Source of the DNA: Kappaphycus alvarezii
Taxonomy: Eukaryota > Rhodophyta > Florideophyceae > Gigartinales > Solieriaceae
NCBI GenBank assembly: GCA_002205965.3
Contig: NADL03000570.1
Span: 62,001-126,000 of the forward strand
Length of the DNA stretch: 64,000 nucleotides
Reading direction: 5' to 3'
Shown: positions 10,666-60,891 of the stretch, in pieces
Position numbering within the stretch: position 1 is the first letter of the stretch
Layout of the letters: every line of letters begins with the position of its first letter
Notes under the pieces: generated by a model
Database searches by the model: none
What the model was told of the DNA's origin: nothing
The model's input: the letters and a program-made list of their open reading frames with translations, nothing else
Translations under genes and position numbers: made by a program

Positions 10666-10667
10666 AA

Positions 10668-13596: not shown

Positions 13597-14036
13597 TGAT
13601 AGGGGTAAATCGGCGGGGAGGAGATCCTCAGAACCAATTACCCTGAGAAGGAGGTGTTGCGAGCGACAAAAGTGCTGCCGTGGTATTGTTGAACGAACAA
13701 AAGGGAGTGTATATAGAAGAGAGTTGAGAAGCTACAAGCAAGTATAAAAGGGGCAGGGTCTACCACCGACGCTCTGCGACTAGCGTAAGAAAAAGTTTTC
13801 TTGGGTCTGAAGTTGACTCTCAACTTCCTACTACTCGGGACTTGGCTTGAAGTTGTCTGCCAACTTGCTTGACCTCTCCATGAGGAAGCAGTTTACTCAG
13901 CTTATATAGACTTTTGGCTACCCCTAAAGTCCGAACAAAACTACAGAAGATACCAAGAAATGCATAAAAATACTTTGTGTGGACAATATACTCTAAGCAA
14001 AAGATACTTAAGAAACTAACAATTAATTTGGTCCTC

Positions 14037-14584
14037 TTATTTCCCATTCTCTAAATCAGATCCAAACAACTCCTCTAAAATATCCATGCTGTCCAAGCAG
14101 TCCCCACAAATATCTGCGAATGGCTCACAACTCTCTATTTCCCCCTGGGAGATATCTAGACTACTAAAGATATCTCCATCCGGTTCCATCGTGGGCACAA
14201 CTTGATCCATACTCTCTATTCCAGGCCCCACCAGTCCAACACTTTCCATGCCCCCTGTTCCCCTCTCCTTCTCCTCATCCTCTTCTCCTCCTCATCCTCC
14301 TCATCCTCCTCATCTTCCTGAGCCTCGTACACTAGCTCAGGGGCTAACCATTCCTCGAAGGACTCCCCGCTCTCCTCCTCGACCTTCTCAGCCTCTCCCG
14401 GACTTACCTCCCTCGCTTCTTCTTCTATGAAGAGGCGGCGCACGAACTCGATGATTTGCTTCTTTGTTTGCCGCCGGATGTAGTCGTCGGCATCGGTTGG
14501 CCCGTAGGCGGCGAGACGAAGGCCATTGATGGAACGGGAAGGGCGGTTTTTGGAAATAGGGACAGAGGGGCGAAGGTTGCTCAT
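14037..14584 (-). pseudogene. LTR-encoded acidic protein, E2 copy (one frameshift)
   Basis: ATG at 14584 in the context CACAATGAGC, 107 bp below a TATA box (14691-14700, CTATTTAAAC). The N-terminal 100 residues are in frame: a Pro/Ser/Arg-rich start, INGLRLAAYGPTDAD, a charged helix-like stretch RRQTKKQIIEFVRRLFIEEE, and a Glu-rich tail. The frame is lost in the GA-rich low-complexity run near 14250-14310. The C-terminal part with CGDCLDSMDILEELFG is intact in another frame and stops at 14037. The full protein would be about 185 residues. No known domain is recognised; no signal peptide or membrane segment is seen. Confidence 0.7.
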
Positions 14585-14952
14585 TGTGATAGAGTTGGGG
14601 AACAGGAGGCAATGTAGGGTGTTTTGGGTGTGTGGGGGAGAGGGGTGATGAGTAAAATGATCGGGGGCATTTGGAACTTAGAATAAAGGGGTTTAAATAG
14701 GCTCCCGGGGCAGGTTCTATAGATTAGGAATAGGTAAAATAAATCTGCAAGGGATTTTGCAATAGTGCATTTGCGCCCTTCTTCTCAAAAAAAGGCGAAT
14801 TTGGAGGAGGAGGTAAGCTAAAAGGGAAAAGGGACTTGATTCGGGGTCGATTCAGAGGGTTAAATACAGTATAAAAATATCTAGATAAAATGGAAGTAAA
14901 TTTGGAAATGACGGTTGGAGAAGTTAGGGGCGGGATCGTTGTAGGTTGCTGG

Positions 14953-15070
14953 ATTACACGAGGGGAGGACCATTTCCTGTCTTACGTGAAGGGAGGACCA
15001 TTTCCTGTATTACGTGAAGGGAGGACCATTTCCTGTATTAAATGAGGGGAGGACCATTTTTTGTATTACA
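14953..15070. repeat. Four 28-bp tandem repeats at the start of the E2 long LTR
   Basis: Units centred on gggaggaccatttcctgtat with spacing of about 28 bp; the outermost has ttttttgtat. They occupy the first ~118 bp of the LTR in its own orientation, upstream of the acidic-gene TATA box, where enhancer repeats are often found in LTRs. Confidence 0.85.
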
Positions 15071-15141
15071 CGCCCCCTTTCTCAAGGCGAACGTCCCGGG
15101 TCGTCACTGCTCTTCTTCTGCTTCCGTTAGTGTTCGCTGTC

Positions 15142-21141: not shown

Positions 21142-21866
21142 TGATAGGGGTAAATCGGCGGGGGAGAAGATCCTCAGAACCAATTACCCTGAGAAGGAGG
21201 TGTTGCGAGCGACAAAAGTGCTGCCGTGGTATTGTTGAACGAACAAAAGGGAGTGTATATAGAAGAGAGTTGAGGAAGCTACAAGCAAGTATAAAAGGGG
21301 CAGGGTCTACCACCGACGCTCTGCGACTAGCGTAAGAAAAAGTTTTCTTGGGTCTGAAGTTGACTCTCAACTTCCTACTACTCGGGACTTGGCTTGAAGT
21401 TGTCTGCCAACTTGCTTCACCTCCACTAAAAGAAGCAGTTTACTCGGCTTATATAGACTTTTGGCTACCCCAAAAGTCTCAAACAAACATACTAATAACC
21501 ATAAAATGTATTCACGGTAATCGTGTGAACCAGAGAGACTATTAGAAGATATTTCCTCAAGGTAAATATCTAGGTGCCATACCCATGGCAGTCACCATTC
21601 GGCCAGGGGTGGGAATTGATGTGGCCATTATATAGACCTTTCAGAGCTACTTGTTGTATCACCCACAACCTGGAACTGTACTGACATCTACTATGATAGC
21701 ACGCGTGTCCTAAAATGAAAAAATCAGCCGACGAATTTGCCACACTCACCCAAATTAAAAATATCTTGCAAATTCAAAAACTGTAAAAATATCTTCCCAA
21801 TTCCGATACTGTATACAATCATGGTCCTCATCTAGATTTTTTTCGTGCGCGAATTTGCGCACATCA
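21142..21866 (-). repeat. E2 5' LTR, short type
   Basis: 725 bp. Ends in the near-palindrome gtgcgcgaatttgcgcac and is followed by attacccc, the E1 target sequence, 16 bp from the stop of LPMO copy 2. It has a private change gatagcacgcgtgtcc for gacagcgtgtcc. Confidence 0.95.
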
Positions 21867-21882
21867 ATTACCCCAGCTTGCC

Positions 21883-23325
21883 TCACCGCACCAGCTTGAT
21901 CTCCACTTCCATTGTGTCACCCTCATCTTCCGCCATTACCATAAGAGTGAACCATCGCCCCACAATTGGCTCATCCCAGTAATTTGGCACCTTCCCCAAG
22001 TTTCCAAATAGGAAGAACGGTCTCTCAAGTTCCGTCCACACCCTAGCCCCATCCAAATAAAACGCCACCCGCGACACTTCAATTCTTGTCACTGCCTCAA
22101 CTGCTACCTGCTCATATCTCGAGATATTCACCTCGTTCCCATTTCTCAGCGTCTCCACCACCTCACCATCTGCCACCAATACCAAATTCTCAAACACGTT
22201 CTGCATCTGACCCTCCACCCCTCCTGAAGTGACCATGGACGCCTGGTGTGTCCCACTCGCCTCCACATCCGGCCTACTCGTAGCCGCCCCTGTGTGCGCT
22301 TTTCCGCCCTTAACACCCACCGGTCCAGCCCTGGGTGCTACACTCGGCGAGGGCGTCACTGTTGGACCTGGCTCATTCGCTGCCCCCCACTCTCTCTACC
22401 ATGGCCCACAATCTTAATATCCGCACATTGGAAGTACTCCTCCGGGAACCGATCGCTTCCACAATCTCTCTGCTCCGCAGTATATCCCCCCCTAGCACCC
22501 CCTTGTCCGAAACAATCGCCCCACGTCTTCGGGTCAAACTCTCCTTCATAAAAGGCAACTACTCCCGGGGGATTGCACGTATTCGCCGAGCTCCAAAACC
22601 AGTGCAGAACGCAATGCTCACATGCCATTCCCTCCGGCAATTGATATATCATCTTACTTCCGCCATAGTACTCCTGAGTATTCTCGGGTAGCGTGGCACA
22701 CGGAAGGTACCACCGGCCAGGGTACTGCGGGTCGATCGGAGCGCACCGAAAGTCCATTCCCGAGTCACACGCTGCGTTTGGTGCACGTTGTAGTTGACAG
22801 CAATGGCCCTGGCGGAAACAAGTTTCAGAAATTTCTCCGCCGCACTTGTCCACGTCGCACAAATGGAGCTCAACAAAACCATTGTGATTAGCCACAATGT
22901 TCATCCACAGTTCGATGACTGCACCTTGAGTGTAAGTAGCGGTGATCATTCCATCGCCATAGTAGCGGCCGCCCCGTCGGTGGTCCTCGATGGGGCCTTT
23001 GAGGTCGCCGCAGACCCCGGCGCGCCAGCGGAAGTCAGGGTCTAGAGGGAGAAAGGGTGACTAGCCCTCTGGTTGGGCAGCACGTACTTGCGATCGGCCG
23101 GCGGATCCAGGGATAGAGGCTTTGTCGCCGGCGGGGAAAATGAGGCTTGTTGTCGATGGGGGTGGAGGGAAAGGTGGCGTTCAGGTTGAAACGGTTGAGG
23201 GGGTTGAGGGCGCCGCGTTGAGGGGGGTAGGATAGGAGACCGTGGGAATGGCATGGGAGAGGATGGAGGCGAAGGAGAAGGAGGGGGAGTAGGAGGGCAA
23301 GGAATCGGAGGGTGTGAGTAGGCAT
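21883..23325 (-). pseudogene. LPMO copy 2, one-base frameshift in the linker
   Basis: Reads like the intact copies over exon 1, the intron and the whole catalytic domain. The frame is lost at a C-run (six C instead of seven, about 22383) in the linker, so the C-terminal Ig-like domain is out of frame. Copy 4 has the same six-C run. A second private change (accatggccc for accccggccc, about 22399) lies nearby. If the C-run is a consensus error the gene may be intact; if real it would give a one-domain LPMO. Confidence 0.85.
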
Positions 23326-23921
23326 TGTTGAAAAAATTGATGAAAATTGATGATGATTGGGATGTAGGGTGATGCAGTAATGAGTATGAGGTTGAAAAGT
23401 TGGGAGTAGGAGGGCAAATGATTGTGAGTAGGAGGTAGAAGAGCGCTGGCAGTGACGGTTGCGTATCGATTTATATCAGGGAGAGGGAGGAAAATGATGT
23501 AAGCGGGAATGACGGAGAGAGGAGGTTGTCGGGACGGTCGGATGTATAGACTAGAAGTAGTTTTGGCATGTGTGTGAGGTATTGAAGCGCTGTTTTGGAA
23601 TGATGCGCATCACTCCCGGGGTGAACTTGTGGAGTAGATTGTTACAGCATATCTTTCAGACAGATACCGGCAAAATGTAGGCCTGAACGAGGCAGGTAAT
23701 GGGAAGACGGGTGACCGCGATGTTGGAGGGAAAGCCAATCCAGCCGTTTTCGAATCTTCCATCTTGCGGATCAACTTTTAGATCGTGTCGACAATACCGG
23801 GGACTCCTCTAAGTTGAGCAGATTTAGTGGACCGAAACCATTAGCTGAGAGGGCCATTTACCATTGTATTGGACTACATTGTGACTTCTTTTCAGGGGGG
23901 TGGTGGGGGTTTCGGTAAACA

Positions 23922-24111
23922 ATGATTTTTATGATTTTTATTAATGACTCCGGGTTCGCTGCCAGCCCGCAGGCCTTTGATGTCTCTGTCATCAGTCCGC
24001 ACTCATCCGGGTTTCGTTCTTGTCCTCCACATGGCCCTATCTCCAAGAAAGAATCAGAGAAACTCCACCATTACCGTACTTTATGCGAATACTACGACTG
24101 GAACTTCACCC
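23922..24111 (+). pseudogene. Non-LTR relic cut by the E3 LTR
   Basis: Front part of the relic seen whole at 180-584 and 58233-58637, ended by the E3 long LTR. Confidence 0.5.
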
Positions 24112-25592
24112 TGATAGGGGTAAATCGGCGGGGGAGAGATCCTCAGAACCAATTACCCTGAGAAGGAGGTGTTGCGAGCGACAAAAGTGCTGCCGTGGTA
24201 TTGTTGAACGAACAAAAGGGAGTGTATATAGAAGAGAGTTGAGGAAGCTACAAGCAAGTATAAAAGGGGCAGGGTCTACCACCGACGCTCTGCGACTAGC
24301 GTAAGAAAAAGTTTTCTTGGGTCTGAAGTTGACTCTCAACTTCCTACTACTCGGGACTTGGCTTGAAGTTGTCTGCCAACTTGCTTGACCTCTCCATGAG
24401 GAAGCAGTTTACTCAGCTTATATAGACTTTTGGCTACCCCTAAAGTCCGAACAAAACTACAGAAGATACCAAGAAATGCATAAAAATACTTTGTGTGGAC
24501 AATATACTCTAAGCAAAAGATACTTAAGAAACTAACAATTAATTTGGTCCTCTTATTTCCCATTCTCTAAATCAGATCCAAACAACTCCTCTAAAATATC
24601 CATGCTGTCCAAGCAGTCCCCACAAATATCTGCGAATGGCTCACAACTCTCTATTTCCCCTGGGAGATATCTAGACTACTAAAGATATCTCCATCCGGTT
24701 CCATCGTGGGCACAACTTGATCCATACTCTCTATTCCAGGCCCCACCAGTCCAACACTTTCCATGCCCCCTGTTCCCCTCCTCCTCCTCCTCCTCTCCTC
24801 CTCTCCTCCTCCTCATCCCCCTCCTCATCCTCCTCATCTTCCTGAGCCTCGTACACTAGCTCAGGGGCTAACCATTCCTCGAAGGACTCCCCGCTCTCCT
24901 CCTCGACCTTCTCAGCCTCTCCCGGACTTACCTCCCTCGCTTCTTCTTCTATGAAGAGGCGGCACGAACTCGATGATTTGCTTCTTTGTTTGCCGCCGGA
25001 TGTAGTCGTCGGCATCGGTTGGCCCGTAGGCGGCGAGACGAAGGCCATTGATGGAACGGGAAGGGCGGTTTTTGGAAATAGGGACAGAGGGGCGAAGGTT
25101 GCTCATTGTGATAGAGTTGGGGAACAGGAGGCAATGTAGGGTGTTTTGGGTGTGTGGGGGGAGAGGGGTGATGAGTAAAATGATCGGGGCATTTGGAACT
25201 TAGAATAAAGGGGTTTAAATAGGCTCCCGGGGCAGGTTCTATAGATTAGGAATAGGTAAAATAAATCTGCAAGGGATTTTGCAATAGTGCATTTGCGCCC
25301 TTCTTCTCAAAAAAAGGCGAATTTGGAGGAGGAGGTAAGCTAAAAGGGAAAAGGGACTTGATTCGGGGTCGATTCAGAGGGTTAAATACAGTATAAAAAT
25401 ATCTAGATAAAATGGAAGTAAATTTGGAAATGACGGTTGGAGAAGTTAGGGGCGGGATCGTTGTAGGTTGCTGGATTACACGAGGGGAGGACCATTTCCT
25501 GTCTTACGTGAAGGGAGGACCATTTCCTGTATTACGTGAAGGGAGGACCATTTCCTGTATTAAATGAGGGGAGGACCATTTTTTGTATTACA
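24112..25592 (-). repeat. E3 3' LTR, long type (with 28-bp repeats at 25475-25592)
   Basis: 1481 bp. Same layout as the E2 long LTR. It shares gttgaacgaac and accaattaccctgag with E2, against gttgaaggaac and accaattgccctgag in E4 and E5. Confidence 0.9.
24553..25106 (-). pseudogene. LTR-encoded acidic protein, E3 copy (broken)
   Basis: ATG at 25106. The frame breaks at ggcggcacgaac (about 24963), where the E2 copy has ggcggcgcacgaac, so the product leaves the family sequence after IIEFV. It returns to a Glu-rich frame, then shifts again in an expanded CTC/TCC run near 24780-24830. The region of the conserved C-terminal motif also has one C fewer (ttcccctggg). Confidence 0.65.
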
Positions 25593-25625
25593 CGCCCCCT
25601 TTCTCAAGGCGAACGTCCCGGGTCG

Positions 25626-31672: not shown

Positions 31673-32389
31673 TGATAGGGGTAAATCGGCGGGGGAGAGA
31701 TCCTCAGAACCAATTACCCTGAGAAGGAGGTGTTGCGAGCGACAAAAGTGCTGCCGTGGTATTGTTGAACGAACAAAAGGGAGTGTATATAGAAGAGAGT
31801 TGAGGAAGCTACAAGCAAGTATAAAAGGGGCAGGGTCTACCACCGACGCTCTGCGACTAGCGTAAGAAAAAGTTTTCTTGGGTCTGAAGTTGACTCTCAA
31901 CTTCCTACTACTCGGGACTTGGCTTGAAGTTGTCTGCCAACTTGCTTCACCTCCACTAAAGAAGCAGTTTACTCGGCTTATATAGACTTTTGGCTACCCA
32001 AAAGTCTCAAACAAACATACTAATAACCATAAATGTATTCACGGTAATCGTGTGAACCAGAGAGACTATTAGAAGATATTTCCTCAAGGTAAATATCTAG
32101 GTGCCATACCCATGGCAGTCACCATTCGGCCAGGGGTGGGAATTGATGTGGCCATTATATAGACCTTTCAGAGCTACTTGTTGTATCACCCACAACCTGG
32201 AACTGTACTGACATCTACTATGACAGCGTGTCCTAAAATGAAAAAATCAGCCGACGAATTTGCCACACTCACCCAAATTAAAAATATCTTGCAAATTCAA
32301 AAACTGTAAAAATATCTTCCCAATTCCGATACTGTATACAATCATGGTCCTCATCTAGATTTTTTTCGTGCGCGAATTTGCGCACATCA
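31673..32389 (-). repeat. E3 5' LTR, short type
   Basis: 717 bp, followed by attacccc and, 17 bp on, the stop codon of LPMO copy 3. Confidence 0.95.
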
Positions 32390-32405
32390 ATTACCCCAGC
32401 TTGCC

Positions 32406-33848
32406 TCACCGCACCAGCTTGATCTCCACTTCCATTGTGTCACCCTCATCTTCCGCCATTACCATAAGAGTGAACCATCGCCCCACAATTGGCTCATCCC
32501 AGTAATTTGGCACCTTCCCCAAGTTTCCAAATAGGAAGAACGGTCTCTCAAGTTCCGTCCACACCCTAGCCCCATCCAAATAAAACGCCACCCGCGACAC
32601 TTCAATTCTTGTCACTGCCTCAACTGCTACCTGCTCATATCTCGAGATATTCACCTCGTTCCCATTTCTCAGCGTCTCCACCACCTCACCATCTGCCACC
32701 AATACCAAATTCTCAAACACGTTCTGCATCTGACCCTCCACCCCTCCTGAAGTGACCATGGACGCCTGGTGTGTCCCACTCGCCTCCACATCCGGCCTAC
32801 TCGTAGCCGCCCCTGTGTGCGCTTTTCCGCCCTTAACACCCACCGGTCCAGCCCTGGGTGCTACACTCGGCGAGGGCGTCACTGTTGGACCTGGCTCATT
32901 CGCTGCCCCCCCACTCTCTCTACCCCGGCCCACAATCTTAATATCCGCACATTGGAAGTACTCCTCCGGGAACCGATCGCTTCCACAATCTCTCTGCTCC
33001 GCAGTATATCCCCCCCTAGCACCCCCTTGTCCGAAACAATCGCCCCACGTCTTCGGGTCAAACTCTCCTTCATAAAAGGCAACTACTCCCGGGGGATTGC
33101 ACGTATTCGCCGAGCTCCAAAACCAGTGCAGAACGCAATGCTCACATGCCATTCCCTCCGGCAATTGATATATCATCTTACTTCCGCCATAGTACTCCTG
33201 AGTATTCTCGGGTAGCGTGGCACACGGAAGGTACCACCGGCCAGGGTACTGCGGGTCGATCGGAGCGCACCGAAAGTCCATTCCCGAGTCACACGCTGCG
33301 TTTGGTGCACGTTGTAGTTGACAGCAATGGCCCTGGCGGAAACAAGTTTCAGAAATTTCTCCGCCGCACTTGTCCACGTCGCACAAATGGAGCTCAACAA
33401 AACCATTGTGATTAGCCACAATGTTCATCCACAGTTCGATGACTGCACCTTGAGTGTAAGTAGCGGTGATCATTCCATCGCCATAGTAGCGGCCGCCCCG
33501 TCGGTGGTCCTCGATGGGGCCTTTGAGGTCGCCGCAGACCCCGGCGCGCCAGCGGAAGTCAGGGTCTAGAGGGAGAAAGGGTGACTAGCCCTCTGGTTGG
33601 GCAGCACGTACTTGCGATCGGCCGGCGGATCCAGGGATAGAGGCTTTGTCGCCGGCGGGAAAATGAGGCTTGTTGTCGATGGGGGTGGAGGGAAAGGTGG
33701 CGTTCAGGTTGAAACGGTTGAGGGGGTTGAGGGCGCCGCGTTGAGGGGGGTAGGATAGGAGACCGTGGGAATGGCATGGGAGAGGATGGAGGCGAAGGAG
33801 AAGGAGGGGGAGTAGGAGGGCAAGGAATCGGAGGGTGTGAGTAGGCAT
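32406..33848 (-). CDS. Secreted LPMO (chitin-binding type-4 fold) with C-terminal Ig-like domain, copy 3, intact
   Basis: Predicted join of 33608-33848 and 32406-33565 around a 42-bp intron (GTGCTG...CCCTCTAG), giving 466 residues. Residues 1-27 are a signal peptide (LALLLPLLLLRL core). Cleavage before His28 gives HGLLSYPPQRGAL, the N-terminal copper-binding His typical of LPMOs. The second copper His is His133 in ANHNGF. Family landmarks follow: CAPIDPQYPGRWY, CEHCVLHWFW, CNPPG and EEYFQCADIKI (about 281-291), the last probably holding the axial aromatic. A Gly/Pro/Thr/Ser linker (about 294-361) leads to a beta-rich domain (363-465; VAFYLDG, PFFLFGNLG, VGRWFTLMVMAED) like bacterial-type Ig domains of secreted enzymes. 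It probably cleaves chitin or another polysaccharide oxidatively outside the cell. A GTACGT donor 4 bp upstream would break the frame. Confidence 0.88.
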
Positions 33849-33990
33849 TGTTGAAAAAATTGATGAATAGTGATGATGATTGGGATGTAGGGTGATGCAG
33901 TAATGAGTATGAGGTTGAAAAGTTGGGAGTAGGAGGGCAAATGATTGTGAGTAGGAGGTAGAAGAGCGCTGGAAGTGACGGTTGCGTATC

Positions 33991-34000
33991 GATTTATATC
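33991..34000 (-). promoter_or_regulatory. TATA-like element of LPMO copy 3
   Basis: Minus-strand GATATAAATC, 143 bp above the ATG at 33848. The same element lies 143 bp above the ATG of copy 5 (57779-57788) and is present upstream of every copy. Confidence 0.45.
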
Positions 34001-34444: not shown

Positions 34445-34635
34445 ATGATTTTTATGATTTTTATTAATGACTCCGGGTTCGCTGCCAGCCCGCAGGCCTT
34501 TGATGTCTCTGTCATCAGTCCGCACTCATCCGGGTTTCGTTCTTGTCCTCCACATGGCCCTATCTCCAAGAAAGAATCAGAGAAACTCCACCATTACCGT
34601 ACTTTATGCGAATACTACGGACTGGAACTTCACCC
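34445..34635 (+). pseudogene. Non-LTR relic cut by the E4 LTR
   Basis: Front part of the relic of 180-584, ended at ggaacttcaccc by the E4 long LTR. Confidence 0.5.
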
Positions 34636-42196: not shown

Positions 42197-42915
42197 TGAT
42201 AGGGGTAAATCGGCGGGGGAGAAGATCCTCAGAACCAATTACCCTGAGAAGGAGGTGTTGCGAGCGACAAAAGTGCTGCCGTGGTATTGTTGAACGAACA
42301 AAAGGGAGTGTATATAGAAGAGAGTTGAGGAAGCTACAAGCAAGTATAAAAGGGGCAGGGTCTACCACCGACGCTCTGCGACTAGCGTAAGAAAAAGTTT
42401 TCTTGGGTCTGAAGTTGACTCTCAACTTCCTACTACTCGGGACTTGGCTTGAAGTTGTCTGCCAACTTGCTTCACCTCCACTAAAAGAAGCAGTTTACTC
42501 GGCTTATATAGACTTTTGGCTACCCCAAAAGTCTCAAACAAACATACTAATAACCATAAATGTATTCACGGTAATCGTGTGAACCAGAGAGACTATTAGA
42601 AGATATTTCCTCAAGGTAAATATCTAGGTGCCATACCCATGGCAGTCACCATTCGGCCAGGGTGGGAATTGATGTGGCCATTATATAGACCTTTCAGAGC
42701 TACTTGTTGTATCACCCACAACCTGGAACTGTACTGACATCTACTATGACAGCGTGTCCTAAAATGAAAAAATCAGCCGACGAATTTGCCACACTCACCC
42801 AAATTAAAAATATCTTGCAAATTCAAAAACTGTAAAAATATCTTCCCAATTCCGATACTGTATACAATCATGGTCCTCATCTAGATTTTTTTCGTGCGCG
42901 AATTTGCGCACATCA
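42197..42915 (-). repeat. E4 5' LTR, short type
   Basis: 719 bp, followed by attacccc and the stop of LPMO copy 4 after 16 bp. Confidence 0.95.
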
Positions 42916-42931
42916 ATTACCCCAGCTTGCC

Positions 42932-44343
42932 TCACCGCACCAGCTTGATCTCCACTTCCATTGTGTCACCCTCATCTTCCGCCATTACCATAAGAGTGAA
43001 CCATCGCCCCACAATTGGCTCATCCCAGTAATTTGGCACCTTCCCCAAGTTTCCAAATAGGAAGAACGGTCTCTCAAGTTCCGTCCACACCCTAGCCCCA
43101 TCCAAATAAAACGCCACCCGCGACACTTCAATTCTTGTCACTGCCTCAACTGCTACCTGCTCATATCTCGAGATATTCACCTCGTTCCCATTTCTCAGCG
43201 TCTCCACCACCTCACCATCTGCCACCAATACCAAATTCTCAAACACGTTCTGCATCTGACCCTCCACCCCTCCTGAAGTGACCATGGACGCCTGGTGTGT
43301 CCCACTCGCCTCCACATCCGGCCTACTCGTAGCCGCCCCTGTGTGCGCTTTTCCGCCCTTAACACCCACCGGTCCAGCCCTGGGTGCTACACTCGGCGAG
43401 GGCGTCACTGTTGGACCTGGCTCATTCGCTGCCCCCCACTCTCTCTACCCCGGCCCACAATCTTAATATCCGCACATTGGAAGTACTTGGGAACCGATCG
43501 CCCACACATCTCTCTGCTCCGCAGTATATCCCCCCTAGCACCCCCTTGTCCGAAACAATCGCCCCACGTCTTCGGGTCAAACTCTCCTTCATAAAAGGCA
43601 ACTACTCCCGGGGATTGCACGTATTCGCCGAGCTCCAAAACCAGTGCAGAACGCAATGCTCACATGCCATTCCCTCCGGCAATTGATATATCATCTTACT
43701 TCCGCCATAGTACTCCTGAGTATTCTCGGGTAGCGTGGCACACGGAAGGTACCACCGGCCAGGGTACTGCGGGTCGATCGGAGCGCACCGAAAGTCCATT
43801 CCCGAGTCACACGCTGCGTTTGGTGCACGTTGTAGTTGACAGCAATGGCCCTGGCGGAAACAAGTTTCAGAAATTTCTCCGCCGCACTTGTCCACGTCGC
43901 ACAAATGGAGCTCAACAAAACCATTGTGATTAGCCACAATGTTCATCCACAGTTCGATGACTGCACCTTGAGTGTAAGTAGCGGTGATCATTCCATCGCC
44001 ATAGTGCGGCCGCCCCGTCGGTGGTCCTCGATGGGGCCTTTGAGGTCGCCGCAGACCCCGGCGCGCCAGCGGAAGTCAGGGTCTAGAGGGAGAAAGGGTG
44101 ACTAGCCCTCTGGTTGGGCAGCACGTACTTGCGATCGGCCGGCGGGATAGAGGCTTTGTCGCCGGCGGGAAAATGAGGCTTGTTGTCGATGGGGGTGGAG
44201 GGAAAGGTGGCGTTCAGGTTGAAACGGTTGAGGGGGTTGAGGGCGCCGCGTTGAGGGGGGTAGGATAGGAGACCGTGGAATGGCATGGGAGAGGATGGAG
44301 GAAGGAGAAGGAGGGCAAGGAATCGGAGGGTGTGAGTAGGCAT
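42932..44343 (-). pseudogene. LPMO copy 4, damaged
   Basis: ATG at 44343, stop at 42932. Exon 1 keeps the HGLLSYPPQRGAL start but has several in-run losses: aggatggaggaaggag lacks codons of the signal peptide, and gccggcgggatagagg loses 7 bases before the intron. Exon 2 is open from the copper His motif to about 43602. It then breaks at actcccgggga (one G lost) and again at gaagtacttgggaaccgatcgcccacac, where about eight bases are missing. The C-run near 43433 has six C, as in copy 2. This is the most decayed catalytic domain of the five. Confidence 0.85.
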
Positions 44344-44934
44344 TGTTGAAAAATTTGATGAAAATTGATGATGATTGGGATGTAGGGTGATGCAGTAATG
44401 AGTATGAGGTTGAAAAGTTGGGAGTAGGGGGCAAATGATTGTGAGTAGGAGGTAGAAGAGCGCTGGCAGTGACGGTTGCGTATCGATTTATATCAGGGAG
44501 AGGGAGGAAAATGATGTAAGCGGGAATGACGGAGAGAGGAGGTTGTCGGGACGGTCGGATGTATAGACTAGAAGTAGTTTTGGCATGTGTGTGAGGTATT
44601 GAAGCGCTGTTTTGGAATGATGCGCATCACTCCCGGGGTGAACTTGTGGAGTAGATTGTTACAGCATATCTTTCAGACAGATACCGGCAAAATGTAGGCC
44701 TGAACGAGGCAGGTAATGGGAAACGGGTGACCGCGATGTTGGAGGGAAAGCCAATCCAGCCGTTTTCGAATCTTCCATCTTGCGGATCACTTTTAGATCG
44801 TGTCGACAATACCGGGGACTCCTCTAAGTTGAGCAGATTTAGTGGACCGAAACATTAGCTGAGAGGGCCATTTACCATTGTATTGGACTACATTGTGACT
44901 TCTTTTCAGGGGGGTGTGGGGGTTTCGGTAAACA

Positions 44935-45125
44935 ATGATTTTTATGATTTTTATTAATGACTCCGGGTTCGCTGCCAGCCCGCAGGCCTTTGATGTCTCT
45001 GTCATCAGTCCGCACTCATCCGGGTTTCGTTCTTGTCCTCCACATGGCCCTATCTCCAAGAAAGAATCAGAGAAACTCCACCATTACCGTACTTTATGCG
45101 AATACTACGGACTGGAACTTCACCC
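44935..45125 (+). pseudogene. Non-LTR relic cut by the E5 LTR
   Basis: Front part of the relic of 180-584, ended at ggaacttcaccc by the E5 long LTR. Confidence 0.5.
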
Positions 45126-46603
45126 TGATAGGGGTAAATCGGCGGGGAGGAGATCCTCAGAACCAATTGCCCTGAGAAGGAGGTGTTGCGAGCGACAAAA
45201 GTGCTGCCGTGGTATTGTTGAAGGAACAAAAGGGAGTGTATATAGAAGAGAGTTGAGGAAGCTACAAGCAAGTATAAAAGGGGCAGGGTCTACCACGACG
45301 CTCTGCGACTAGCGTAAGAAAAAGTTTTCTTGGGTCTGAAGTTGACTCCCAACTTCCTACTACTCGGGACTTGGCTTGAAGTTGTCTGCCAACCTGCTTG
45401 ACCTCTCCATGAGGAAGCAGTTTACTCGGCTTATATAGACTTTTGGCTACCCCTAAAGTCCGAACAAAACTACAGAAGATACTAAATGCATAAAAATACT
45501 TTGTGTGGACAATATACTCTAAGCAAAAGATACTTAAGAAACTAACAATTAATTTGGTCCTCTTATTTCCCATTCTCTAAATCAGATCCAAACAACTCCT
45601 CTAAAATATCCATGCTGTCCAAGCAGTCCCCACAAATATCTGCGAATGGCTCACAACTCTCTATTTCCCCCTGGGAGATATCTAGACTACTAAAGATATC
45701 TCCATCCGGTTCCATCGTGGGCACAACTTGATCCATACTCTCTATTCCAGCCCCACCAGTCCAACACTTTCCATGCCCCCTGTTCCCGCATCCTCCTTCT
45801 CCTCATCCACCTCTTCCTCCTCCTCATCCTCCTCATCCTCCTCATCTTCCTGAGCCTCGTACACTAGCTCAGGGGCTAACCATTCCTCGAAGGACTCCCC
45901 GCTCTCCTCCTCGACCTTCTCAGCCTCTCCCGGACTTACCTCCCTCGCTTCTTCTTCTATGAAGAGGCGGCGAACGAACTCGATATTTGCTTCTTTGTTT
46001 GCCGCCGGGATGTAGTCGTCGCATCGGTTGGCCCGTAGGCGGCGAGGACGAAGGCCATTGATGGAACGGGAAGGGCGGTTTTTGGAATAGGGACAGAGGG
46101 GCGAAGGTTGCTCATTGTGATAGACGTTGGGGAACGGGAGGCAATGTAGGGTGTTTTGGGTGTGTGGGGGGAGAGGGGTGATGAGTAAAATGATCGCGGG
46201 CATTTGGAACTTAGAATAAAGGGGTTTAAATAGGCTCCCGGGGCAGGTTCTATAGATTAGGAATAGGTAAAATAAATCTGCAAGGGATTTTGCAATAGTG
46301 CATTTGCGCCCTTCTTCTCAAAAAAAGGCGAATTTGGAGGAGGAGGTAAGCTAAAAGGGAAAAGGGACTTGATTCGGGGTCGATTCAGAGGGTTAAATAC
46401 AGTATAAAAATATCTAGATAAAATGGAAGTAAATTTGGAAATGACGGTTGGAGAAGTTAGGGGCGGGATCGTTGTAGGTTGCTGGATTACACGAGGGGAG
46501 GACCATTTCCTGTCTTACGTGAAGGGAGGACCATTTCCTGTATTACGTGAAGGGAGGACCATTTCCTGTATTAAATGAGGGGAGGACCATTTTTTGTATT
46601 ACA
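45126..46603 (-). repeat. E5 3' LTR, long type (with 28-bp repeats at 46486-46603)
   Basis: 1478 bp. Groups with the E4 long LTR. It has a private five-base loss (gatactaaatgc for gataccaataaatgc, about 45478). Confidence 0.9.
45563..46115 (-). pseudogene. LTR-encoded acidic protein, E5 copy (broken)
   Basis: ATG at 46115. Several private one-base changes (tttttggaatag, cgaggacgaagg, gtcgcatcgg, cgatatttgc) scramble the N-terminal 50 codons. From FVRRLFIEEE on, the frame is open through the Glu run to about 45750, where one lost C (ttccagcccc) shifts it. The motif CGDCLDSMDILEELFG is present after that. Here the arginine codons read ggcggcgaacgaac, a spacing that keeps IEFVRRLF in phase. Confidence 0.65.
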
Positions 46604-52683: not shown

Positions 52684-53404
52684 TGATAGGGGTAAATCGG
52701 CGGGGGAGAAGATCCTCAGAACCAATTACCCTGAGAAGGAGGTGTTGCGAGCGACAAAAGTGCTGCCGTGGTATTGTTGAACGAACAAAAGGGAGTGTAT
52801 ATAGAAGAGAGTTGAGGAAGCTACAAGCAAGTATAAAAGGGGCAGGGTCTACCACCGACGCTCTGCGACTAGCGTAAGAAAAAGTTTTCTTGGGTCTGAA
52901 GTTGACTCTCAACTTCCTACTACTCGGGACTTGGCTTGAAGTTGTCTGCCAACTTGCTTCACCTCCACTAAAAGAAGCAGTTTACTCGGCTTATATAGAC
53001 TTTTGGCTACCCTAAAAGTCTCAAACAAACATACTAATAACCATAAAATGTATTCACGGTAATCGTGTGAACCAGAGAGACTATTAGAAGATATTTCCTC
53101 AAGGTAAATATCTAAGTGCCATACCCATGCCAGCCACCCATCGGCCAGGGGTGGGAATTGATGTGGCCATTATATAGATCTTTCAGAGCTACTTGTCGTA
53201 TCACCCACAACCTGGAACTGTACTGACATCTACTATGACAGCGTGTCCTAAAATGAAAAAATCAGCCGACGAATTTGCCACACTCACCCAAATTAAAAAT
53301 ATCTTGCAAATTCAAAAACTGTAAAAATATCTTCCCAATTCCGATACTGTATACAATCATGGTCCTCATCTAGATTTTTTTCGTGCGCGAATTTGCGCAC
53401 ATCA
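52684..53404 (-). repeat. E5 5' LTR, short type
   Basis: 721 bp, ending gtgcgcgaatttgcgcacatca and followed by acagcgacg. Confidence 0.95.
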
Positions 53405-54327: not shown

Positions 54328-55834
54328 TGTAGTGTAGTTCTATCAGGCGAGAAACTGATGGAATTCTCTTTTCGCGCATAAATTCCCTCCCCATACGCTT
54401 CTCCAGTCAATTTCCTTCCTTTCTTTCTCCTTCCAATTTGTTTCTCCTTGAAGCGACGAAATGTACATTTATTTATGGTCCTTTTTCCCTTTGTTTCTCT
54501 TTTTATGTGTGATTGCCTTCTTCTTCGACATTAATCCGGTTAAGATTCTCGGCTTACTGGATTTTCCTCAACCCGCAATACATTTTTCCATATTTAAGAT
54601 TTCTATTTGTGATATTCCCCATAAATTACCTTTTTCAAAGGCAATTTTCACTAATCCCTACTATAAGACCAATTTGCGCCTACATTTTCGATTCAGCAGG
54701 CCTGCCAATTTGAACAATTTGACGCTATTTAAACTCATCGGGCGCTGCCTAAAATTCATCCCCGACCCGTTAACATCAAAACGCGAAAACGTACACCTCC
54801 ACCCTGACAGCCATCATGCACTGACTACCCTCTTCCCGCCTCTTTGGCAAATTCCGTCATTTCCGCATCATGTTCGACTCCCCTTTCTTCCCATTGGACC
54901 CAGGCAAAGTATACGACCAACTCAGTCGCTAAACAAGGAAGCGCCTGACGGAGCGCGTTACCAGTCGCTCGGTGGAGATCGAAGTACAGGAAGGGGTAGG
55001 AGGTACTCGGAAGAGGGGGATTGTAGGGCAAAGGAGTGCTTCAAGGAAGGACTGGTACTGGAACTGGTCTACGAGACGGAAAAAGAGGAGGGCGAGGGCA
55101 AGTCCAGGGTAGAAGAAGAGAGGGGCGAGGAAGAGCCCCGGGAAGAAGAAATGCAGGCCGAGGAAGGGTCCAGGGGAATGAGAAGAAGCCGAGGAGTCCG
55201 CCAATATAGAAGGGAAAGTCGAACCGTATCATATAGAAGGGGAAGGGACGAATTGGCTCGAACATGTAGTCCTGGCCATGGAACCCGTTGGAGGGGTGCC
55301 AGGTGAGCTGTATTCATTGCAGGAAAAGGTAAGCAACCATGGGCAATTTTCGTTCATTGACTGGTATGTATGGGGACTGCAAGGGTGGTTATGATGTCTC
55401 GACGGAAGTGTTACGTTCTGATTTAGAGGGCAAAGATTGTGAGGAGTACATTTTTCGTGTTTTCCAATCATCTTCTGCCAAATTAGCTGAGTCCACGCGA
55501 AGTCGCTTCCTGCGATTTTTGGTGATTTTAATGTCTTCCGAGATGTAAGTTTGGAAGATAGCATATATAGGCTGGATGAATTGCTTCCTTTAGGAGAAGC
55601 AAGGCAAGTTGGGAGTCAACTTCAAACTAAAATCTTCGTTTAGCTCTAGCCTCTAAGCGAGGTGGAATATTTTGCTCCTTTGAAATTTGTTACTAGAACA
55701 GTTACTGACCTTTCGCGCCCACTCCTCAGCGTTTCTGTTAACGTCTACTGTAGCACTTTAGTAGCTCGCAACGACTCTCACTTCGGGTAGGTAGCGGTTC
55801 CGTTTTCCGTTGACGCTATTTTTACCCTACGACA
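54328..55834 (+). repeat. Diverged solo LTR, type X, right copy
   Basis: Copy of the LTR at about 2014-3520, with a TATA box (gctatttaaactc, about 54724-54736) and end ccctacgaca. The left boundary is inferred. Confidence 0.5.
54870..55548 (+). pseudogene. LTR-encoded acidic protein, type X, right copy, broken
   Basis: ATG at 54870, then the same early stop as the left copy (ctcagtcgctaaacaagg). The Glu-rich middle and the tail GDCKGGYDVSTEVLRSDLE are clearer here than at 2555-3232 because the left copy has lost bases at gtctcacgg. Still not one open frame. Confidence 0.5.
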
Positions 55835-56177
55835 ATACCTAAACTTCACCTCTTTGGAGGGATAGCGGATGGACCAGGAGCAGTGGTGGATGACAGCTCC
55901 TTTCTTTTGCATAGAGATTCTTGTTTAAGGTAGTCAGCTCGGGAATAGCCCGCGTTTATTTCGCAATAAGCAGCCCCCATTTTCGCTCTTTTCCTACTGT
56001 AAATAAAGATATGTTCACTACGTTGTATTAAAGAGGGAAATCAACCGTTCAAACAGAGAGTTACTGCCGCCATAACTGTATATTTCAAAAAATAACTTCA
56101 ACGGGCACCTTTGTGGCTCCATATCGACATCTCCTCACATCGTAAATTATGTGCAACGTCCCCACAACCGGCCCATC

Positions 56178-56182
56178 ATTAC
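56178..56182. other. Empty insertion site of the short-LTR element
   Basis: ggcccatcattaccccagc runs through with a single ATTAC. In the left copy E1 sits here between two copies of ATTAC. Confidence 0.95.
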
Positions 56183-56193
56183 CCCAGCTTGCC

Positions 56194-57636
56194 TCACCGC
56201 ACCAGCTTGATCTCCACTTCCATTGTGTCACCCTCATCTTCCGCCATTACCATAAGAGTGAACCATCGCCCCACAATTGGCTCATCCCAGTAATTTGGCA
56301 CCTTCCCCAAGTTTCCAAATAGGAGGAACGGTCTCTCAAGTTCCGTCCACACCCTAGCCCCATCCAAATAAAACGCCACCCGCGACACTTCAATTCTTGT
56401 CACTGCCTCAACTGCTACCTGCTCATATCTCGAGATATTCACCTCGTTCCCATTTCTCAGCGTCTCCACCACCTCACCATCTGCCACCAATACCAAATTC
56501 TCAAACACGTTCTGCATCTGACCCTCCACCCCTCCTGAAGTGACCATGGACGCCTGTGGTGTCCCACTCGCCTCCACATCCGGCCTACTCGTAACCGCCC
56601 CTGTGTGCGCTTTTCCGCCCTTAACACCCACCGGTCCAGCCCTGGGTGCTACACTCGGCGAGGGCGTCACTGTTGGACCTGGCTCATTCGCTGCCCCCCC
56701 ACTCTCTCTACCCCGGCCCACAATCTTAATATCCGCACATTGGAAGTACTCCTCCGGGAACCGATCGCTTCCACAATCTCTCTGCTCCGCAGTATATCCC
56801 CCCCTAGCACCCCCTTGTCCGAAACAATCGCCCCACGTCTTCGGGCCAAACTCTCCTTCATAAAAGGCAACTACTCCCGGGGGATTGCACGTATTCGCCG
56901 AGCTCCAAAACCAGTGCAGAACGCAATGCTCACATGCCATTCCCTCCGGCAATTGATATATCATCTTACTTCCGCCATAGTACTCCTGAGTATTCTCGGG
57001 TAGCGTGGCACACGGAAGGTACCACCGGCCAGGGTACTGCGGGTCGATCGGAGCGCACCGAAAGTCCATTCCCGAGTCACACGCTGCGTTTGGTGCACGT
57101 TGTAGTTGACAGCAATGGCCCTGGCGGAAACAAGTTTCAGAAATTTCTCCGCCGCACTTGTCCACGTCGCACAAATGGAGCTCAACAAAACCATTGTGAT
57201 TAGCCACAATGTTCATCCACAGTTCGATGACTGCACCTTGAGTGTAAGTAGCGGTGATCATTCCATCGCCATAGTAGCGGCCGCCCCGTCGGTGGTCCTC
57301 GATGGGGCCTTTGAGGTCGCCGCAGACCCCGGCGCGCCAGCGGAAGTCAGGGTCTAGAGGGAGAAAGGGTGACTAGCCCTCTGGTTGGGCAGCACGTACT
57401 TGCGATCGGCCGGCGGATCCAGGGATAGAGGCTTTGTCGCCGGCGGGAAAATGAGGCTTGTTGTCGATGGGGGTGGAGGGAAAGGTGGCGTTCAGGTTGA
57501 AACGGTTGAGGGGGTTGAGGGCGCCGCGTTGAGGGGGGTAGGATAGGAGACCGTGGGAATGGCATGGGAGAGGATGGAGGCGAAGGAGAAGGAGGGGGAG
57601 TAGGAGGGCAAGGAATCGGAGGGTGTGAGTAGGCAT
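56194..57636 (-). CDS. Secreted LPMO with C-terminal Ig-like domain, copy 5, intact
   Basis: Predicted join of 57396-57636 and 56194-57353 with the intron at 57354-57395; 466 residues. Same signal peptide, His28 after cleavage, His133 and Ig-like C-terminus as copy 3. Differences from copy 3 are mostly substitutions (ASGTPQAS for ASGTHQAS, a Val for Ala in the linker, Gly for Asp before PKTWGD, Leu for Phe in PFLLFGN), mostly outside the catalytic motifs. It is the only copy whose 3' flank has no retrotransposon, so it best represents the original gene with its own terminator region. Confidence 0.88.
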
Positions 57637-57778
57637 TGTTGAAAAAATTGATGAAAATTGATGATGATTGGGATGTAGGGTGATGCAGTAATGAGTATGA
57701 GGTTGAAAAGTTGGGAGTAGGAGGGCAAATGATTGTGAGTAGGAGGTAGAAGAGCGCTGGCAGTGACGGTTGCGTATC

Positions 57779-57788
57779 GATTTATATC
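57779..57788 (-). promoter_or_regulatory. TATA-like element of LPMO copy 5
   Basis: Minus-strand GATATAAATC, 143 bp above the ATG, the same distance as in copy 3. Confidence 0.45.
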
Positions 57789-58054
57789 AGGGAGAGGGAG
57801 GAAAATGATGTAAGCGGGAATGACGGAGAGAGGAGGTTGTCGGGACGGTCGGATGTATAGACTAGAAGTAGTTTTGGCATGTGTGTGAGGTATTGAAGCG
57901 CTGTTTTGGAATGATGCGCATCACTCCCGGGGGTGAACTTGTGGAGTAGATTGTTACAGCATATCTTTCAGACAGATACCGGCAAAATGTAGGCCTGAAC
58001 GAGGCAGGTAATGGGAAGACGGGTGACCGCGATGTTGGAGGGAAAGCCAATCCA

Positions 58055-59373
58055 GCCGTTTTCGAATCTTCCATCTTGCGGATCAACTTTTAGATCGTGT
58101 CGACAATACCGGGGACTCCTCTAAGTTGAGCAGATTTAGTGGACCGAAACCATTAGCTGAGAGGGCCATTTACCATTGTATTGGACTACATTGTGACTTC
58201 TTTTCAGGGGGGTGGTGGGGTTTCGGTAAACAATGATTTTTATGATTTTTATTAATGACTCCGGGTTCGCTGCCAGCCCGCAGGCCTTTGATGTCTCTGT
58301 CATCAGTCCGCACTCATCCGGGTTTCGTTCTTGTCCTCCACATGGCCCTATCTCCAAGAAAGAATCAGAGAAACTCCACCATTACCGTACTTTATGCGAA
58401 TACTACGGACTGGAACTTCACCCCATGGCTGCTGATGTCTATGGTTGCATCGGACCCGGGTTTGATCAAGCTGTGCAACAAGTCGCCCACTTTCTCGCCA
58501 GCAAGTGTGGTACCTCTGTTGCCGTCGAGAAACATTCGCTCCTGGCTAGATTCGTATGCCTGATTGTCCAATACGTTGCTACGCCCGTTAATCGGCGGCG
58601 TCTTGACCAGACCACCGATTTGGCCCCTGCTGTGTAGTCCCAGGCCCTGCGCTGTATGCCGCTAGCGGTCTCCTGAGTATTGATCATTAAGGGTGATGCT
58701 TTCGTAAACAAAGGCACAATACGAAGAATCAGTAAACTGCTTTCACTCCCTCAGGGAACAGCTGACCATATTTTTCATGCATTAAAAACACCCCAAATTC
58801 CCCCCTTTTACTGGCTTGTTTCAAAAAAAGTGATTGGCCCATTTTCTAATGATAAGTTATGTACGCTCCGGTACAAATTCACGCCGCCACATTTCGCCAA
58901 GTACGGTTACTGTAGGCGCTTCATAAACACTCGCAGAGCGCGAGAGACATTATCATTACGGCACTTGCTGCAACCAAAACAATATCCTCCTCTCCCCCGT
59001 TGGGATTGATATTTATGGCGCCTTTGGCGACGACGGCAAGGGTTTTTTCCGCCGCCTTGCTTCCTTCGCTGCTTCCCGTCGTGGTTCCTCCCCTCAACAG
59101 GAGCTCCGCGACTTTGTTACCCGTTTTGCATTTAGTCTCCAAATAATGCAGGCGACACAGGTTTCTACCTGCCGCCCGCATCCGTAGTTAATTTTTGAGT
59201 GCCCTCCGCACGGCTCTGTGTGACATTGTAGCACCCATAATGATCTACCACCACAAATCTACCGGGTCCCAACCCACATTTCTACCACAGTAAATTAACC
59301 CCCCATTTCCCCATTTTGTAATTTATACCTTTTAATGGAATCAGCTCTGTAGTGCCTACTCCGGGGGGGGGGT
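58055..59373. repeat. Right copy of the LPMO-upstream flank (segments U and V)
   Basis: Matches 1-863 and continues past the LTR insertion point of E2-E5 without an element (cttcaccccatggctg). It includes about 475 bp (58841-59315) absent from the left copy and flanked by the short direct repeat cccatttt. That extra stretch has an 86-codon minus frame (58921-59181) with no recognised similarity. Confidence 0.8.
58233..58637 (+). pseudogene. Non-LTR retrotransposon C-terminal relic, right copy
   Basis: 134 codons, same frame as 180-584 with His for Gln and Ala for Val after GLEL. The kept frame in two separated copies reflects recent duplication rather than function. The motif basis is PQAFDVSVISP followed by a Tyr/basic block and GCIGPGFD. 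Confidence 0.5.
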
Positions 59374-59375
59374 CT

Positions 59376-60891
59376 TCACGGCGGTGGGAACAACCACTTA
59401 GAGGCGCCGAGGAGTAGGATATAAACTAATCGAAAAGAATGTCGAGCGAAAAAGGTCCTCTTCGCATCCTGGAATCCGCCCTTGACCAATCGTCCTACCC
59501 TTTTCTTTCCAAAACAAATTCTAAAAATCTTTTCCCTTTATGAATCCAAATTCACTGTACAACTCCATTTCTATTTAATGTTTGAATATTTGGTCCTCCT
59601 CCTTCAAAGAGATGCCTTTCAATTCGTGGTCACTTCGCCTCCCAAATTCAATTCCGATATTTCATCACGCAGATTTTTGTGATGCCCCCGAATTCATGCA
59701 AATCCAAAGCCGCAGTATCGCCTCGTACTTCTTGACCAATTTCATGTTGATTACCAAAGACATGCACCTATTTAAAGTACTGTAGCATTGTCGCTGAAGC
59801 ATCACTCCTACTACCAACAATTCGATAAGCTGATTTCCCTTTTTGTCAACATTCGCAACCCCGCTCACACTTTTTCCAGAAATCTGACGTCAAATCGCCC
59901 CTTTGTCCCTATCTCCAAAAAACGCCCTTCCCATCCCATCAATGGCCTCCGTCTCGCTGCCTACGGGCCAACCGATGCCGAAGACTACCTCCGGCGGCAA
60001 ACGAAGAAGAAGATCATCGAGTTCGTTCGCCGCCTCTTTATAGAAGAAGAGGCGAGAAAGTTAAGTGAGGCTGAGGCTGAGAAAGTCGAGGAGGAGAGCG
60101 GGGAGTCCTTCGAGAAATGGTTAGCCCCTGAGCTGGTTTACGAGACCCAGGAGAAGGATGAGGAGAACGAGGATAGGATGGAAGATCGGTCCATGGAGGA
60201 GGTGAAAGTGCAGTTCAAGTGCAGTAATTGGACCGCAGCTTCGAGAACTTTAGGGCGGGGCGGGAGCTAGGAATGGAGAATCAGGGGGTACCGGTCGTGT
60301 AAGTGGATAAAGATATATTTAGTGGTCTAGATATTTCAGGGGAGGCCACAGGAAGCCGCGAACCCCTCGAAGGGATATGTGTGGACTGTAAGGGTAGCAT
60401 GGATATTTTGCCGGAGCTGTTCGGTTCTAGCCTTGAGAATGAAGATTGGGAGGAGTAAATGTAGATATTTATTGGAAGTATCTTATTGCTAGTCTCTATC
60501 GTCTGTATGATTTGTTTTAGTGCATTTTATGGTATTTAGTATGCGTTCTTGAGACTTTAGGATTAGCCGAAAAGTCGATATAAGCTGAGAAAATTGCTTC
60601 CTCCTTGAGAGAAAAAGCAAGTTGGCAGACAACTTCAAGCCCGGTCCCAAATAGTTAGGAAGTTGAGAGTCAACTTCAGACCCAAGAAGCATTTATTTTA
60701 CGCTAGTCACTGAGCATAAGTGGTATATCCTGCCCTTTCCATACTTGCTTGTAGCCCTCTAAACTCTCTTCCATGTACACTCCTTTTTGTTCGTTCAACT
60801 ACACCACAGTAGCACTTTTGTCGCTTACAACACCTCCTTCTTGGGATAAGTGGTTCTGAGGATCTCTTCACCCGCCGATTTACCCCTATCA
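59376..60891 (+). repeat. Diverged solo long LTR, plus strand
   Basis: Ends ccgccgatttacccctatca exactly like the element LTRs. Contains the hairpin pair caagttggcagacaactt and gaagttgagagtcaacttc, a TATA box (cctatttaaag, about 59768-59778) and an acidic-protein gene. The start at 59376 (tgggaac) is inferred from where similarity to the left flank ends and from the usual length. No target duplication was found (right flank aagac). Confidence 0.7.
59887..60458 (+). pseudogene. LTR-encoded acidic protein, diverged plus-strand copy
   Basis: Very close to the E2 protein: INGLRLAAYGPTDAEDY, RRQTKKKIIEFVRRLFIEEE, KVEEESGESFEKWLAPELVYE, then an acidic tail and CVDCKGSMDILPELFG before the stop at 60456-60458. 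The expected start codon has become ACG (59887-59889) in the same context, and the frame shifts near 60255 (gggcggggcggg). No other in-frame ATG precedes the conserved part. The flanking LTR sequence is much less alike than the protein. Confidence 0.7.

Follow-up and report, generated by a model that had tools for sequence, protein, structure and literature searches.

Do the long terminal repeats (LTRs) of a retrotransposon in the red alga Kappaphycus alvarezii carry a protein-coding gene of their own? The question is raised by a stretch of 64,000 nucleotides (assembly GCA_002205965.3, contig NADL03000570.1, positions 62,001–126,000), hereafter called the window, in which five Ty3/gypsy elements (E1–E5) lie in tandem on the minus strand with a period of approximately 10.5 kb. 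An earlier note on this DNA had described a frame for an acidic protein, preceded by a TATA box, inside LTRs of three types. We followed this frame through the surrounding genome assembly (336 Mb, 884 contigs). The sequence comparisons make it very probable that the long LTRs of these Ty3/gypsy elements encode a real gene that is under selection.

Position of the gene in the LTR

The gene lies wholly inside U3, the unique 3′ region of the LTR, in the sense direction of the element. Its ATG is found approximately 420–540 bp into the LTR and its stop codon 5′ of the main TATA box. As the ATG is inside the LTR, the 5′ LTR and solo LTRs also hold the complete gene. The long LTRs of E2–E5, to which the earlier note had assigned the gene, do carry it, but only at the 3′ end; the 5′ LTRs of these four elements are short and gene-less, so each element has the gene in one LTR. 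In the 3′ LTR of E2 (13597–15070, minus strand, 1474 bp, TGTAATAC...TATCA), the gene copy (14037–14584) starts with an ATG at 14584 and remains open for 122 codons before it breaks in the acidic tract. The main TATA box TATATAAG (13901–13908) is located 3′ of the gene stop, an inner TATA box TATTTAAA (14692–14699) approximately 115 bp before the ATG, and 28-bp tandem repeats (4.3 copies, 14949–15069) at the 5′ end of U3. The 3′ LTRs of E3 (24112–25592; gene 24553–25106, TATTTAAA at 25214), E4 (34636–36118; gene 35078–35631, TATTTAAA at 35739) and E5 (45126–46603; gene 45563–46115, TATTTAAA at 46225) are of the same long type, here called the first type, and also on the minus strand.

The second type is represented by a solo LTR on the plus strand at 59440–60891 (TGTCGAGC...TATCA), flanked by AAGAA and AAGAC with one mismatch. 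Its gene copy (59884–60458, TATTTAAA at 59769) has lost the start codon, with CTG in place of the ATG of its relatives, and is broken further downstream; it shares 76% identity over 102 residues with the E2 frame. The relatives in the genome, most of which align from about base 65 of the query 59376–60891, place the left edge at 59440 rather than 59376, and a start at 59763, suggested by a 6-bp duplication, was dropped for the same reason. For one pair of LTRs of the two types, and with one shuffle per segment, identity was 0.48 in the upstream U3 (0.41 shuffled), 0.42 from the inner TATA box to the ATG (0.42 shuffled), 0.86 in codons 1–87, 0.64 in the acidic middle, 0.58 in the C-terminus, 0.68 from the stop to the main TATA box and 0.86 from there to the LTR end. 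Local alignment of the upstream U3 regions of E2 and the 59.9-kb LTR, the latter taken with the boundary 59376, gave nothing beyond shuffles (22 of 200 were as good).

Every gene copy in the window is broken, as had been noted (the open reading frame regions of E2–E5 measure 548, 554, 554 and 553 bp, none divisible by 3), and intact copies are found only elsewhere in the genome. Because indels, mostly of 1 bp, are as frequent as or more frequent than substitutions in several comparisons of tandem copies, part of this breakage may be assembly error. The acidic tract itself (14265–14326, 24777–24843, 35305–35374 and 45789–45858) is a GAG/GAA-rich simple repeat of variable length, which often breaks the frame.

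Solo LTRs, intact frames and full-length elements

In the genome, 70 loci were read: 40 of the second type, including the window copy, and 30 of the 40 first-type loci found, including the four window copies. The second-type loci are mostly LTRs of approximately 1.4–1.45 kb. Exact 5-bp duplications bound 16 of these 40, 14 of them independent (L022/L029 and L036/L037 share flanks) and one, L041, holding an insertion. A script test detected a primer-binding site (PBS) after three second-type LTRs, to which L012 was added by eye. Among the 30 first-type loci, eight have exact duplications (L059, cut by a contig end, was left out), and the script test found a PBS in seven and a polypurine tract (PPT) in ten. 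Since solo LTRs that hold the gene are enclosed by exact target duplications, the LTR boundaries are correct for these two types and a misplaced boundary is ruled out. This confirms for both types that the gene lies inside the LTR; the third type is treated below.

An intact frame of 188 codons is present in six of the 40 second-type loci (L014 and L017 are duplicates of one locus) and one of 177–186 codons in 12 of the 30 first-type loci (L046 and L048 are the two LTRs of one element). With 18 of 70 loci intact and conservation between the types in the gene's own frame, a chance frame is ruled out. None of 1000 Markov shuffles of each of two LTRs gave a frame as long as the observed one. Frame length alone is nevertheless weaker evidence, because the longest frames in the shuffled LTRs reached 169 and 177 codons (means 60 and 66).

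Internal sequence adjoins 13 first-type LTRs (1.5 kb each, 96–99.9% identical to the window elements) and four second-type LTRs (0.4–1.5 kb, 79–83%). The earlier note had proposed a search for full-length elements that carry the gene at both ends, and one is located at C567:152408–161376. Read at its two ends, it has a PBS, a PPT, 5-bp CCCCC duplications and a gene copy in each LTR. Between the two LTRs there are 10 substitutions, in 1446 bases compared, and seven gap positions. The 3′ gene copy is open throughout; the 5′ copy is open as well, but its acidic part contains shifts out of frame and back. On C575, the frame is intact in both LTRs, between which there are 0 substitutions and 33 gap positions, the 3′ LTR being cut at its end. 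The partner LTR of L008 was sought in C660:13500–17500 and not found there.

A protein search of the genome yielded 6716 candidates, of which the best 150 were scored. Of these, 149 are free of stops within the matched residues, in a ranking that favours intact copies. They include 27 same-strand neighbour pairs 7.0–7.7 kb apart, which is about the length of one LTR plus one internal region. These pairs comprise 51 hits with three chains of three (six pairs) and are not 27 independent elements; C567 is the one that was read. Eight of the 99 unpaired hits, taken near the top of the list, were also read, and TGTAAT, the LTR start motif, was present in all eight where it was expected. In two of the eight the fetched stretch reached the LTR end, and a PBS follows it in both. 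These eight hits speak against a gene located outside LTRs; the other 91 and the unscored candidates may include such copies.

Selection on the coding frame

Ratios of non-synonymous to synonymous divergence (dN/dS) were determined for naturally intact frames of approximately 180 codons. Between the two LTR types the median was 0.33 (range 0.28–0.46, 60 pairs), which is not near 1 and agrees with what the earlier note had expected of a maintained gene. In five representative pairs the coding frame gave 0.29–0.43, with bootstrap 95% limits between 0.18 and 0.64, compared with 0.88–1.44 in the two other forward frames, and changes were most frequent at third positions. In the C-terminal block, dN was 0.37 and dS approximately 2.2 or saturated; the median ratio there was 0.15 in 27 of the 60 pairs, dS being saturated in the other 33. 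The window copies of E2 and 59.9 kb, compared over 83 codons, differ by 13 synonymous changes in 56.7 sites and 13 non-synonymous changes in 192.3 sites (dN/dS 0.26). On the evidence of these codon comparisons, the protein has been under purifying selection between the two LTR types.

Decayed gene copies in a third LTR type

The LTRs at 2.0 and 54.3 kb, both on the plus strand, contain a decayed form of the same gene. The first spans approximately 2014–3520 (protein matches 2668–3001, TATTTAAA at 2411) and its duplicate 54328–55834 (protein matches 54983–55428, TATTTAAA at 54726). Their edges are uncertain by tens of bases, the longest diverged relatives starting at query bases 10–38 and ending at about 1502 of 1507. 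Near-identical copies comprise the two in the window, five on C201 (96–100% identity) and two on C473, one of them partial. Nine further loci align over at least 1.1 kb at 65–68% identity, and others partially at up to 87%. The five copies on C201 form a second tandem array of this LTR (6315–30653, period approximately 5.7 kb).

Five of the nine diverged loci were read. In an unfiltered tblastn search with the first-type protein, acidic tract included, against a tiny database, all five matched (E values 3e-18, 2e-14, 2e-13, 2e-11 and 1e-7). With only the N-terminal 60 residues and default filters, four of the five matched (4.6e-11, 1.7e-10, 1e-4 and 8e-4), at 25–45 bits compared with at most 21.2 bits for 200 shuffled queries. 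All third-type copies that were read, two in the window and five elsewhere, are decayed. The statement that the gene is kept in three LTR types therefore holds for its presence, but in the third type only as a remnant. Because this remnant belongs to the same gene, the gene probably predates the split of the LTR types.

The encoded protein

The protein has 177–188 amino acids and an isoelectric point of 4.05 and 4.15 in one copy of each type. It consists of a slightly basic N-terminal part, an acidic middle and an acidic C-terminal part with the hydrophobic motifs DIFSxLDIS and SMDILxEL. In one first-type copy, residues 1–60 contain 12 K/R and 8 D/E, and residues 61–182 contain 46 D/E and 2 K/R. 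One second-type copy has 11 K/R and 9 D/E followed by 40 D/E and 8 K/R, without the long acidic run; this run is long and variable in length in the first type and shorter in the second. An alignment of 17 intact copies has 55 invariant columns.

No homologue was detected at an E value of 0.001 among 5.8 billion proteins, viral contigs and GTDB contigs. Four copies gave no Pfam match near a family's cut-off, with E values up to 10 listed; this includes Sag, of which the protein is not classed as a homologue. A search of the PDB gave no match either. As to known DNA-binding or activation domains, Pfam and PDB showed none, and the feature observed is the charge layout. The basic part followed by acidic-hydrophobic motifs presumably resembles activators. 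Tentatively, the protein could activate LTR transcription in the nucleus or counteract its silencing, an assignment to which we give somewhat less than even odds. Roles in nuclear import, chromatin or anti-silencing are alternatives to a transcription activator, and the present data do not separate them.

The inner TATA box and proposed expression of the gene

The TATA box noted upstream of the frame, TATTTAAA, occurs seven times in the 64 kb, counting both strands, once 5′ of each of the seven gene copies and nowhere else. In 29 of 30 first-type and 29 of 40 second-type LTRs it stands where it is expected. The U3 of the long LTRs holds a complete accessory gene, which has the main TATA box of the element on its 3′ side and, on its 5′ side, a region that may contain enhancers. 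In the arrangement that we propose, a short mRNA would begin at TATTTAAA. Because transposition copies U3 to both ends, each new element obtains two gene copies and each solo LTR retains one. The protein would act in trans, most likely on LTR transcription and otherwise in another step of the element cycle.

Alternatively, the gene may be real but expressed in the manner of nef, as an accessory frame in the 3′ part of genomic or spliced RNA, for which the inner TATA box would be irrelevant. The U3 of the 3′ LTR is the 3′ end of the genomic RNA in established retroelement biology, and exact TATTTAAA is missing in 11 of 40 second-type LTRs and in the five diverged third-type LTRs. On the other hand, nearly all first-type LTRs have kept the box, and 29 of 40 second-type LTRs have it at almost the same distance, within a leader that is otherwise no more similar than shuffled sequence (0.42 in both cases). 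We consider this mode of expression rather unlikely, and transcription from the inner TATA box is retained as the proposal.

A further step would be to regard the LTR as a self-contained cassette with its own promoter, a trans regulator of the LTRs of the family and its own 3′ end signals. This is a speculative extension which we think improbable on balance. If it were true, solo LTRs would serve as a store of the regulator scattered over the genome, and the short-LTR elements, which lack the gene, would parasitize relatives that have it and whose gag-pol is almost the same.

Observations weighing against a selected gene

Several observations weigh against a selected, LTR-encoded gene. The first concern the frame. 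Within types, the median dN/dS is higher, 0.64 for the first (66 pairs) and 0.78 for the second type (10 pairs), with single pairs up to 1.24; as expected, these ratios mostly reflect decay after insertion. Between E2 and the 59.9-kb copy, the antisense frame that shares third positions has a ratio of 0.29 compared with 0.26 for the sense frame; it contains stops in 3 of 82 codons in one or both sequences, the sense frame none. Furthermore, the median dS of codons 1–87 is 0.32, far below the 2.2 of the C-terminal block where computable, and for this reason the conservation of codons 1–87 may partly be due to DNA-level constraint or to exchange between LTR types.

Taken further, this would make the conserved segment a DNA or RNA element that acts in cis within the LTR, with an open frame that is merely incidental to it. 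Codons 1–87 are indeed as conserved as R-U5 (0.86 each), with low synonymous divergence. Such an element is, however, difficult to reconcile with changes that are commonest at third positions, with the low ratio of the coding frame relative to the other forward frames, with a C-terminal block in which dN is 0.37 at a dS of approximately 2.2 or saturation, and with short-LTR elements that spread without the region. We regard it as highly improbable and retain a protein-coding gene as the explanation.

Other points concern the third type and the function. The query of the N-terminal 60 residues did not match L075 or either of the two third-type window copies, and TATTTAAA was found in 0 of the five diverged third-type LTRs. 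The activator proposal is drawn from composition.

The remaining points come from gene-less sisters. The short LTR (3869–4589 and others) has a gene-less U3 joined just 5′ of the main TATA box, and approximately 346 bp at the 3′ end are common to long and short LTRs. The best 40 of 1485 genome candidates for the short-LTR U3 are all 99–100% identical, and seven pairs approximately 6.8 kb apart (on C704, C190, C801, C831, C490, C677 and C41) are spaced as in elements with two short LTRs. The internal region of E1, the short-LTR element for which this comparison was made, differs from those of E2–E5 by 13–37 substitutions in approximately 6.1 kb. Since gene-less elements are abundant and the internal region of E1 is nearly the same, the gene is dispensable in cis. 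The near-identity of the short LTRs shows recent activity and is not proof of a lineage younger than the gene-bearing one, because the candidate ranking favours near-identical copies and a gene-bearing element with substitution-free LTRs exists.

That gene-less elements thrive would also suit a host gene caught by chance in an LTR and carried as a passenger without a role for the element, and searches of viral, element and family libraries gave no relative of the protein. However, a cellular homologue was not found either (5.8 billion proteins, GTDB contigs), the frame is under purifying selection between two types and occurs in three, and all eight sampled unpaired protein hits are correctly spaced from an LTR start motif. 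A passenger is thus very unlikely, and a gene that serves the element remains our interpretation.

Structure of the tandem array

The internal region of E1 (4590–10667, minus strand) has matches to protease (PR), reverse transcriptase (RT), RNase H (RH) and integrase (IN) families in at least one of the copies. In frames of different copies these are RVT_1 (9.6e-36), RT_RNaseH (4.4e-39), Asp_protease_2 (1.7e-11), Integrase_H2C2 (1.5e-10) and rve (3.7e-9), and the order PR-RT-RH-IN follows from the positions of the open reading frames. TG...CA ends, a PBS, a PPT and 5-bp target duplications (ATTAC at E1, CCCCC at C567) complete the picture of Ty3/gypsy LTR elements. E1 has two short LTRs of approximately 720 bp (3′ LTR 3869–4589, 5′ LTR 10668–11378, both on the minus strand) and is bounded by the ATTAC duplications; its insertion site is empty at approximately 56171–56190. 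The short 5′ LTRs of E2–E5 (21142–21866, 31673–32389, 42197–42915 and 52684–53404, minus strand) are combined with the long 3′ LTRs of approximately 1.47 kb.

Sixteen aligned sites at which E1 differs from all of E2–E5 lie within 4568–4619, ten of them in the unlike LTRs, and only six more follow up to 10,000. Owing to this clustering, E2–E5 would be copies of one hybrid insertion, most simply formed when an unequal crossing-over took place a short way into the 3′ LTR, and then amplified in tandem. With E2–E5 as repeats of one insertion and the LTRs at 2.0 and 54.3 kb as one duplicated insertion, the window would contain three independent gene-bearing insertions, not seven. The hybrids (3869–53404) have no matching target duplication. 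The right LTR of E5 differs by 8–10 substitutions from the four other right LTRs, which differ from one another by 0–3; it therefore seems to derive from another insertion.

Comparison of 11379–13596 with 21867–24111, 32390–34635, 42916–45125 and 56183–58423 revealed more indels, mostly of 1 bp, than substitutions against the first and fourth unit. This suggests residual assembly errors in the tandem units, and broken frames there need careful reading. A minus-strand frame at 56194–57261 matches LPMO_10 (E value 2.2e-5) and resembles the AA15 protein 5msz (1.4e-7); it lies in unit B, which is repeated beside each element. A plus-strand frame of 134 codons, present at 58233–58637 and duplicated at 180–584, belongs to no Pfam family at the cut-off. 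The long LTRs of E2–E5 start directly after the base equivalent to 58423, inside the unit with this frame.

Comparison with known LTR-encoded frames

Long frames in LTRs include MMTV (mouse mammary tumour virus) sag, primate nef and frames of bovine foamy virus and several HML consensus LTRs, and those clearly beyond the random zone are sag, nef of human and simian immunodeficiency viruses and one HML8 frame, as far as the accessible text of PMC2664473 goes. The parallel to sag drawn in the earlier note is apt for the arrangement, with the whole frame in U3, on the sense strand and hence in both LTRs (C567; C575, with its 3′ LTR cut). The differences are that the element is a Ty3/gypsy element and not a retrovirus, that the protein is very acidic and that no relation was found in Pfam. 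Sag has a vertebrate immune target, and there is no such target for the Kappaphycus LTR protein. The spumavirus bel/tas region codes for an accessory transactivator with an acidic activation domain, and its coding region reaches toward the LTR; no sequence relation to it was found, and the LTR protein may at most be Tas-like in function. Nef starts upstream of the 3′ LTR, whereas the ATG of the LTR gene is approximately 420–540 bp inside the LTR, so that solo LTRs contain the frame in full. The two are alike in that an accessory frame occupies part of U3 (PMC2664473, accessible text).

The extra frames of the plant elements Grande, RIRE2 and Retand are similarly family-wide, mostly without homologues, of unknown function and possibly regulatory, but are placed between pol and the 3′ LTR, according to the available portions of PMC7264820. 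They are therefore present once per element and absent from solo LTRs; nowhere does that review use the wording 'in the LTR', 'within the LTR' or 'inside the LTR'. The family-specific ORF3s of bdelloid rotifer LTR retrotransposons include envelope-like, DEDDy-like and GDSL-like frames, and none is described inside an LTR in the accessible text of PMC5408684. Promising phrases in the available parts of PMC1560396, PMC12037069, PMC4016481 and PMC10974842 concern something else, and these papers were rejected as precedents. In the literature searched, which mostly did not cover subscription papers, no LTR retrotransposon was found whose LTR encloses a complete gene.

As far as this literature goes, the novelty lies in an arrangement like that of sag for an unrelated protein, in Ty3/gypsy elements. 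The LTR frames in the accessible parts of the literature examined belong to retroviruses and endogenous retroviruses only. Solo LTRs are usually seen as dead promoters. A selected gene that comes in two copies with each new element and persists in every solo LTR alters the notion of what such an LTR can be. Moreover, elements with and without the gene coexist and have nearly the same internal sequence, which provides a natural comparison for the effect of the gene on spread and copy number.

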